This document shows positions 26,243 through 28,209 of a stretch of DNA of 64,000 nucleotides, one piece after another. The stretch lies in NCBI GenBank assembly GCA_029262515.1, contig JAJCZH010000008.1, positions 1 through 64,000 on the forward strand, in the 5' to 3' direction. The notes beneath the pieces were generated by a model. It ran no database searches, was not told the DNA's origin, and was given only the letters and a program-made list of their open reading frames with translations. Positions within the stretch are counted from its first letter, which is position 1; each line of letters begins with the position of its first letter. The stretch comes from Deltaproteobacteria bacterium (GTDB lineage Bacteria > Desulfobacterota > GWC2-55-46 > JADFVP01). The translations under genes and the position numbers were made by a program.

Positions 26243-26527
26243 ATGAACCTCTTCATTACCATAATTTTGCTACTACTCATCACTTTAGCCGCCTTTGCTC
26301 TAAACCTGCCGTTCGGATACTACAGGGGCGGCACCAAGAAGTTTTCCTTCATGTGGTTCCTCTATATCCATGCTCCTATTCCAGCCATCTTCGTAATGAG
26401 AACTCTGGCCGGGTTCAGCATAAAGTACGTGCCTATCTTTATCATCGGCGCCATTGCCGGCCAGGTAATAGGCAGAAGGTACTACTCGAAGCAGCAGCCG
26501 GAGATTATTCCCGAAGTTATCCAGTAA
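26243..26527 (+). CDS. Small conserved-looking membrane protein
   Basis: 94 aa. Two or three hydrophobic helices: residues about 2-22, 34-52 and 58-75, with LNLPFGYYRGG and KKFSFMWFLYIHAPIPA between the first two. The short polar C-terminus is cytoplasmic or periplasmic. It lies before the DciA-like gene on the same strand and after a near-leaderless promoter. I do not know a function; the pattern resembles a small uncharacterised family from Gram-negative bacteria. Confidence 0.75.
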   Translation: MNLFITIILLLLITLAAFALNLPFGYYRGGTKKFSFMWFLYIHAPIPAIFVMRTLAGFSIKYVPIFIIGAIAGQVIGRRYYSKQQPEIIPEVIQ

Positions 26528-26587
26528 CAGCGGTTTTTTATAGTCGAGTCCGTAAATCTCTGTTTTTAAATGGGTCGGAAGCGCCAA

Positions 26588-27154
26588 ATGAAAAAAGAGA
26601 AACCCTCCCGCACTGCCGGCAGGATAGTCTGGCCGAAGTTCCCGAAGAGAAAAAGAGAGTACGGCAGAGAACCCAAGCGCCCGTCTCAGATGAAGTCCGT
26701 CATCACCTCCTTCGGCATAGACGCAATAGAACAGAAACTCAAAGAATACAAGGTCCGAAAGTGCTGGACAGAGGCCGTGGGGGCTAAAATAGCCAAAAAG
26801 ACGGAACCCCTGATGCTTATCGGCTCCACGCTGCATTGCGTGGTATCGTCATCTCCCTGGATAACCGAACTCAATTATCAAAAAAAGACTATTATAGAGA
26901 AAGTTAATGCGGCAGTCGGAGAAGAGATTGTTACCGATATTTTCTTCAAACCCGGCGTTATTAAAGAGAGTCCAGTACAAGAGCCGGATGAAGATCGTAG
27001 CAAAACAGAGGGGGTTCCGGGGGTCAGCCCGGAGATTACAGACGAACAGAGATATTTTATAGAGTCTACCATAAGCTCTATAAAAGACCCCGGCTTAAAA
27101 GAAGCGGTTAGGCGAGCAATGGAGCGGGCGACTGAACCGAAGCCGAAGCCCTGA
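26588..27154 (+). CDS. DUF721/DciA-like protein
   Basis: About 188 aa from ATG 26588, with GGAAG upstream; an in-frame ATG at 26570 is an alternative. A basic N-terminus (RKREYGREPKRP) is followed by a DUF721 core (about 40-120: YKVRKCWTEAVGAKIAKKTE, then LHCVVSSSPWITELNYQKK) and an acidic linker. DciA is the predominant bacterial helicase operator, loading DnaB at origins, and its DUF721 domain has this pattern. The C-terminal tail with ESTISSIKDPGLKEAVRRAM looks like a separate helical hairpin. It ends 17 bases before the selenoprotein gene, probably in one operon. Confidence 0.75.
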   Translation: MKKEKPSRTAGRIVWPKFPKRKREYGREPKRPSQMKSVITSFGIDAIEQKLKEYKVRKCWTEAVGAKIAKKTEPLMLIGSTLHCVVSSSPWITELNYQKKTIIEKVNAAVGEEIVTDIFFKPGVIKESPVQEPDEDRSKTEGVPGVSPEITDEQRYFIESTISSIKDPGLKEAVRRAMERATEPKPKP

Positions 27155-27171
27155 GAAAAGGAGAACCCAGC

Positions 27172-27498
27172 ATGAATGAGGTAGTAGTAGAGATAACCTA
27201 CTGTCTTGAATGAGGTTATCTACCCAGGGCCGCAAGTCTTGCGGCCAGAATAGAGAAACGTTTCAATCTAACTCCGGCCCTTGTTGAGGGAAATAACGGC
27301 ATCTACGAAATCGCCGTAAACGGCCAGACCGTTTATACGAATAGAAGCGAGTGCAGCGTCTTTCCGGTCGATGCTGAGATCTTCGCCATGATAGAAAAAC
27401 AGACGCCGGTAATTTCCGAAGAAGAGGTAGAGGAAAAAGCGCAGGAGGCAGAAACACCTGTTGCATGCGACTGGAAAGAATCGGTTGAAGAGGCGTAA
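27172..27498 (+). CDS. SelW-like (Rdx family) selenoprotein, Sec encoded by TGA
   Basis: 108 aa if TGA at 27211-27213 is read as selenocysteine (residue 14). ATG 27172 is preceded by AAGGAG with good spacing. The N-terminus gives VVVEITYC then LEU, that is CxxU, followed by GYLPRAASLAARIEKRF, the typical Rdx/SelW pattern where the second redox residue is Cys or Sec. The frame continues to TAA at 27498 with GIYEIAVNGQTVYTNR and an acidic tail. A hairpin begins 14 bases after TGA. Standard gene calling splits or misses it. Thioredoxin-like redox function is inferred; partner unknown. Confidence 0.85.
27228..27246 (+). promoter_or_regulatory. Bacterial SECIS-like hairpin
   Basis: GGCCGCAAG and CTTGCGGCC are perfectly complementary around one T; a realistic fold is a seven-pair stem with the loop AGTCT. 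The stem starts 14 bases after the UGA, the position of bacterial SECIS elements, and the loop contains GU as SelB-binding loops do. It lies inside the coding sequence and is compatible with the family's PRAASLAAR codons. Confidence 0.7.
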
Positions 27499-27600: not shown

Positions 27601-28209
27601 ATGAATAAAAAACAGTTTAAGATTACAGATAAAAAACTAATAAATGAGGTGCTGAATAGAGCCGAGTACGGAGTTCTGGCATTATATGATGAAAAACCTT
27701 ATGCCGTTCCGGTTAATTTTGTTCATCTCGGCGGTGCGGTGTACTTTCACGGCTCACCGAGAGGCAAGAAAATGAGAATGCTTAGAGCAAATAACAGTGT
27801 CTCGTTTAACGTTGTTGCCGATTCGGTATTAATACCATCTTACTTCAGCAGCACAGAAAACTTAGCATGTCCAGCCTCCGCATTTTATAAGTCCATTATT
27901 ATAGATGGCGAAACTGAAGTGGTCGGCAGCCGTGAAGAGCTGGCAAAGGTATTCTCCGCTATGATGGAAAAACTCCAGCCTGAAGGAAGGTACAAGTCAT
28001 TTGAGTCGTGTGAATATGATGACTCTTTCTCGGAAGTATCAGTTGTTAAAATCAGAGTGCATCAAATATCTGCAAAATTTAACTTCGGTCAATACTTAAA
28101 TCAGGAGCGGTTTCAGATGGTGATTGAACATCTGGAAAAACGGGGTGAACAAATTGATCTGTTAACCGCCAATACAATGAGACAATATAAAAAAGAAGTT
28201 CACTGGTAG
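27601..28209 (+). CDS. Pyridoxamine 5'-phosphate oxidase-like flavin-binding protein
   Basis: 202 aa. An FMN-binding split barrel of the NimA/PNPOx-like kind: YGVLALYDEKPYAVPVNFVH, YFHGSPRGKKMRML, then SVSFNVVAD and YKSIIIDGETEVV. Such proteins bind flavin and sometimes heme; some reduce nitro compounds. AT-rich in codon choice compared with neighbours, and no good ribosome site before ATG 27601. It stands alone on the plus strand, about 100 bases after the selenoprotein gene. Exact substrate cannot be told. Confidence 0.82.
   Translation: MNKKQFKITDKKLINEVLNRAEYGVLALYDEKPYAVPVNFVHLGGAVYFHGSPRGKKMRMLRANNSVSFNVVADSVLIPSYFSSTENLACPASAFYKSIIIDGETEVVGSREELAKVFSAMMEKLQPEGRYKSFESCEYDDSFSEVSVVKIRVHQISAKFNFGQYLNQERFQMVIEHLEKRGEQIDLLTANTMRQYKKEVHW

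Follow-up and report, generated by a model that had tools for sequence, protein, structure and literature searches.

SelW-like selenoproteins with a CxxU motif have been recognised as a bacterial family for some twenty years (PMC1088965, PMC1794560, PMC2398784). Two surveys, Sargasso Sea (PMC1088965) and GOS (PMC2398784), found them to be the most abundant family, and among the Deltaproteobacteria they occur, for example, in Geobacter sulfurreducens and Desulfotalea psychrophila (PMC1794560); a 2026 review lists them under PF10262, as SELENOW-like (PMC13188914). The locus described here, positions 27172-27498 (+) of a 64,000-nt stretch of DNA (the window), shares with these bacterial selenoproteins the fold, the core-domain length and the CxxU pair, as well as the position of the SECIS hairpin and the accompanying selenocysteine (Sec) machinery. 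Judged from its sequence, it is almost certainly a SelW-like (Rdx family) selenoprotein gene, for which we infer both Sec insertion and biochemical function. The protein is an ordinary member of a well-known selenoprotein family, and the finding leaves knowledge of selenium use unchanged; its contribution is a SelW-like lineage linked to dciA, from a genus represented here by genomes of uncultured deltaproteobacteria.

The gene comprises 108 codons plus a TAA stop (27496-27498). Its ATG start codon (27172-27174) lies 8 nt behind a GGAG at 27160-27163 (+), a probable Shine-Dalgarno sequence, in agreement with a first-pass annotation that had proposed an ATG with a ribosome site at this position. 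The frame translates as MNEVVVEITYCLE-TGA-GYLPRAASLAAR... up to the TAA and contains a single in-frame TGA, at codon 14 (27211-27213), such that Cys11 (TGT), Leu, Glu and Sec14 make up a CxxU motif, C11-L-E-U14, at 27202-27213 (+). Both this motif and an intact frame continuing to 27498 had been anticipated, and both are present in the sequence.

When the TGA was translated as Cys, the read-through protein matched the Pfam Rdx profile PF10262 with 45.3 bits across residues 6-75 (cut-off 22.6 bits), and TIGR02174 (CXXU_selWTH) with 39.1 bits over nearly the entire profile (cut-off 34.2 bits), supporting the SelW-like identity originally suggested. Assignment to the NF041051 SelTWH_Campy equivalog was rejected, as the match, although covering nearly the entire profile, reached 61.6 bits against a cut-off of 88. 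A profile built from the read-through protein and its relatives matched solved SelW-related proteins. The AlphaFold model of the read-through protein had a mean pLDDT of 76.9, with 85-92 per block in residues 1-50 and values below 60 in the C-terminal tail only. Foldseek searches with this model returned bacterial SelW-related structures as top matches, the best being 2obk (E 9.9e-07), with mouse SelW also among the matches; the solved bacterial proteins 2obk, 2fa8, 3dex and 2p0g share the fold of the model, but are only 24-32% identical to the protein in the listed alignments. The predicted beta-alpha-beta-beta-beta-alpha thioredoxin-like fold is that of the Rdx/SelW family, as is the placement of the CxxC/CxxU pair between the first strand and the first helix, with C11 and U14 modelled at the end of strand 6-11, ahead of helix 17-31.

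Among 59 close genomes searched, matches occurred only in the source genome and in two further members of its genus. A search of genome contigs with a genus-only alignment recovered these two under the public names Deltaproteobacteria bacterium Dive96_bin3.294 and Proteobacteria bacterium C1.bin.21; the contig search with the single read-through protein as query gave no match. Each of the two orthologues carries one in-frame TGA, at the codon corresponding to codon 14, and keeps both the hairpin and the upstream dciA neighbour. In the source genome this neighbour is a DciA-like gene at 26570-27154 (+; PF05258, 64.6 bits), directly upstream across a 17-nt gap, just as the first-pass annotation had placed it. 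Comparison within the genus gave dS of 1.1-2.2 and dN of 0.23-0.28 in the region 3' of the TGA, and with dS well above dN this part is therefore under purifying selection as protein. Across the phylum, Rdx proteins were detected in 37 of 247 genomes, with an in-frame TGA in 34 of the 37 matches (that of the source genome included). Among the loci that were read, the TGA falls exactly in the CxxU at 28, and one locus (L020) has Cys (TGT) at this position, so that homologues with Sec or Cys at codon 14, the support that had been looked for, do exist. An in-frame UGA is accordingly kept at the active-site Cys/Sec position, as is characteristic of bacterial selenoprotein genes, and neither of the observations named in advance as contrary (absence of selA/selB/selD, or homologues with a stop or an unrelated residue at codon 14) was made. 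The protein query had no match in the other searched genomes of the order, many of which have selA yet gave no match, and the gene is therefore patchy in its distribution; a plasmid search also gave no match.

The first-pass annotation had pointed out that the organism would need SelA, SelB, SelC and SelD, and all of these components were found in the source genome (completeness 98.45%): selA (487 bits), selB (291 bits, together with its neighbours), a Sec-type selD with an in-frame TGA (355 bits) and a tRNA-Sec with a UCA anticodon (67.4 bits). The selB and selD genes are adjacent and lie on the same contig as the 27172-27498 gene. The tRNA-Sec lies on a different contig from selB/selD or selA, and ARAGORN did not find it beside either. 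In the same-genus genome G002, selA was not found, likely owing to an assembly gap, since the rest of the machinery (selB, Sec-type selD, tRNA-Sec) was found there; for the same reason we rejected the reading of a Sec gene without machinery in G002. Formate dehydrogenase alpha is the other common selenoprotein, and its profile (TIGR01591) had no match above cut-off in the source genome. By its sequence, the selD of the source genome (G000:C8:239042-239965 (-), locus L015:2438-3571) is a selenoprotein gene too, with its in-frame TGA at the active-site NCAG-U-ASK, directly downstream of selB; in genomes G001-G003 the selD genes show the same arrangement, each with a single in-frame TGA and a position behind selB.

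Bacterial SECIS (bSECIS) elements are expected to have a loop of 3-9 nt with a G in its first two positions, a stem of 4-16 bp, a spacing of 16-37 nt and an MFE <= -7.5 (PMC13188914). Downstream of the TGA, GGCCGCAAG (27228-27236) is the exact reverse complement of CTTGCGGCC (27238-27246), with its first base 14 nt past the TGA. The exact 9+9 inverted repeat was thus reported correctly in the first-pass annotation, with one correction: the stem has 8 bp, since RNA cannot form the innermost G-C pair of the DNA repeat. The folded hairpin (27228-27246, +) pairs 27228-27235 with 27239-27246 and exposes the loop GUC (27236-27238), which contains the GU that had been predicted there. With this loop, the 8-bp stem, 22 nt between the UGA and the loop G, and a folding energy of -14.3 kcal/mol over the 24 nt of the hairpin region, it conforms to the bSECIS rules.

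Taken alone in a single gene, the hairpin is weak evidence and exceeds chance only moderately, since it encodes a peptide, AASLAA, that is close to a palindrome. Among synonymous recodings, 9% fold equally well or better, and 2.2% retain all 8 pairs (the recoding rows run through locus L042; the frame of L043 contains a TAG). Conservation and covariation of the hairpin among relatives, by comparison, place it well beyond chance. In 22 relatives, 86.9% of the stem cells are paired, and the stem covariation score is 0.445, compared to 0.169 in shuffled and at most 0.124 in slid controls, with changes on both sides in four stem pairs. In relatives that have ASGLEA for AASLAA both hairpin arms change together. 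An Rfam scan of the region returned a chance match only, under the gathering score.

The gene, its family, the machinery and the hairpin are established at the sequence level, and the known behaviour of the Rdx/SelW family suggests how they would operate together. We propose that ribosomes decode codon 14 as selenocysteine through SelB, which would carry Sec-tRNA-Sec and attach to the hairpin immediately 3' of the UGA. The product would be a SelW-like (Rdx) selenoprotein with a thioredoxin-like fold, whose CxxU pair would act as a thiol/selenol redox couple on a partner.

Two other explanations would dispense with Sec at this codon. A Cys-type Rdx gene could have been broken by a TGA mutation or a sequencing error, leaving a pseudogene in which the hairpin is a by-product of AASLAA, as its modest standing in a single gene would allow; we regard this as very improbable, given that both same-genus relatives and most Rdx matches in the phylum carry the same TGA, that the sequence 3' of it evolves under purifying selection, and that the genome holds the full Sec machinery. 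Less probable still is a chance open frame, with a 13-residue peptide ending at the TGA as the true product. TGA is a stop codon in table 11, and the table-11 ORF list does not include the 27172-27498 gene, as a chance frame would predict, but the family match runs across the TGA, homologues have Sec or Cys at that position, and here too the purifying selection downstream speaks for a translated protein. What table-11 ORF calling overlooked is, on the selenoprotein reading that we favour, a genuine selenoprotein gene.

By alignment, the sole distinctive trait of the protein is a genus-wide segment with a third cysteine, Cys61, encoded by TGC at 27352-27354 (+) within NRSECSV. This cysteine is common to all three genus members and missing in the other aligned Rdx proteins: where bacterial SelW-like proteins read (F/Y)SKKxxGRFP, the genus has YTNRSECSV(F/L)P, with NRSECSV at the position where other Rdx members mostly carry GRF. 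That the genus constitutes a distinct SelW subfamily, in which C61 would resolve a selenenyl intermediate in a three-residue Cys/Sec/Cys mechanism, seems to us unlikely. The protein also has an acidic C-terminal tail of about 30 residues, unlike bacterial SelW-like selenoproteins; two of the three genus members have it, and the third does not.

Further features surround the locus. The selenoprotein gene is adjoined by a flavin-binding pyridoxamine-phosphate-oxidase-like gene (27601-28209, +), whose product resembles Nim 5-nitroimidazole reductases, though far under the family cut-off (60.7 against 260). Upstream of dciA, and conserved there in both same-genus relatives, 26243-26527 (+) encodes a 94-aa hydrophobic protein, probably a membrane protein, which had no match in Pfam or NCBIfam. 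The sequence GGGTCTGGNTCA occurs once in the 64,000-nt window. Finally, the intergenic segment 28310-28395 contains CCCTGAGTTTGATTCAGGGTCTGG...CGAATCGAGTTCAGCATGACATG, and similar motifs lie behind the orthologue at L018; this is possibly a dispersed genomic repeat.
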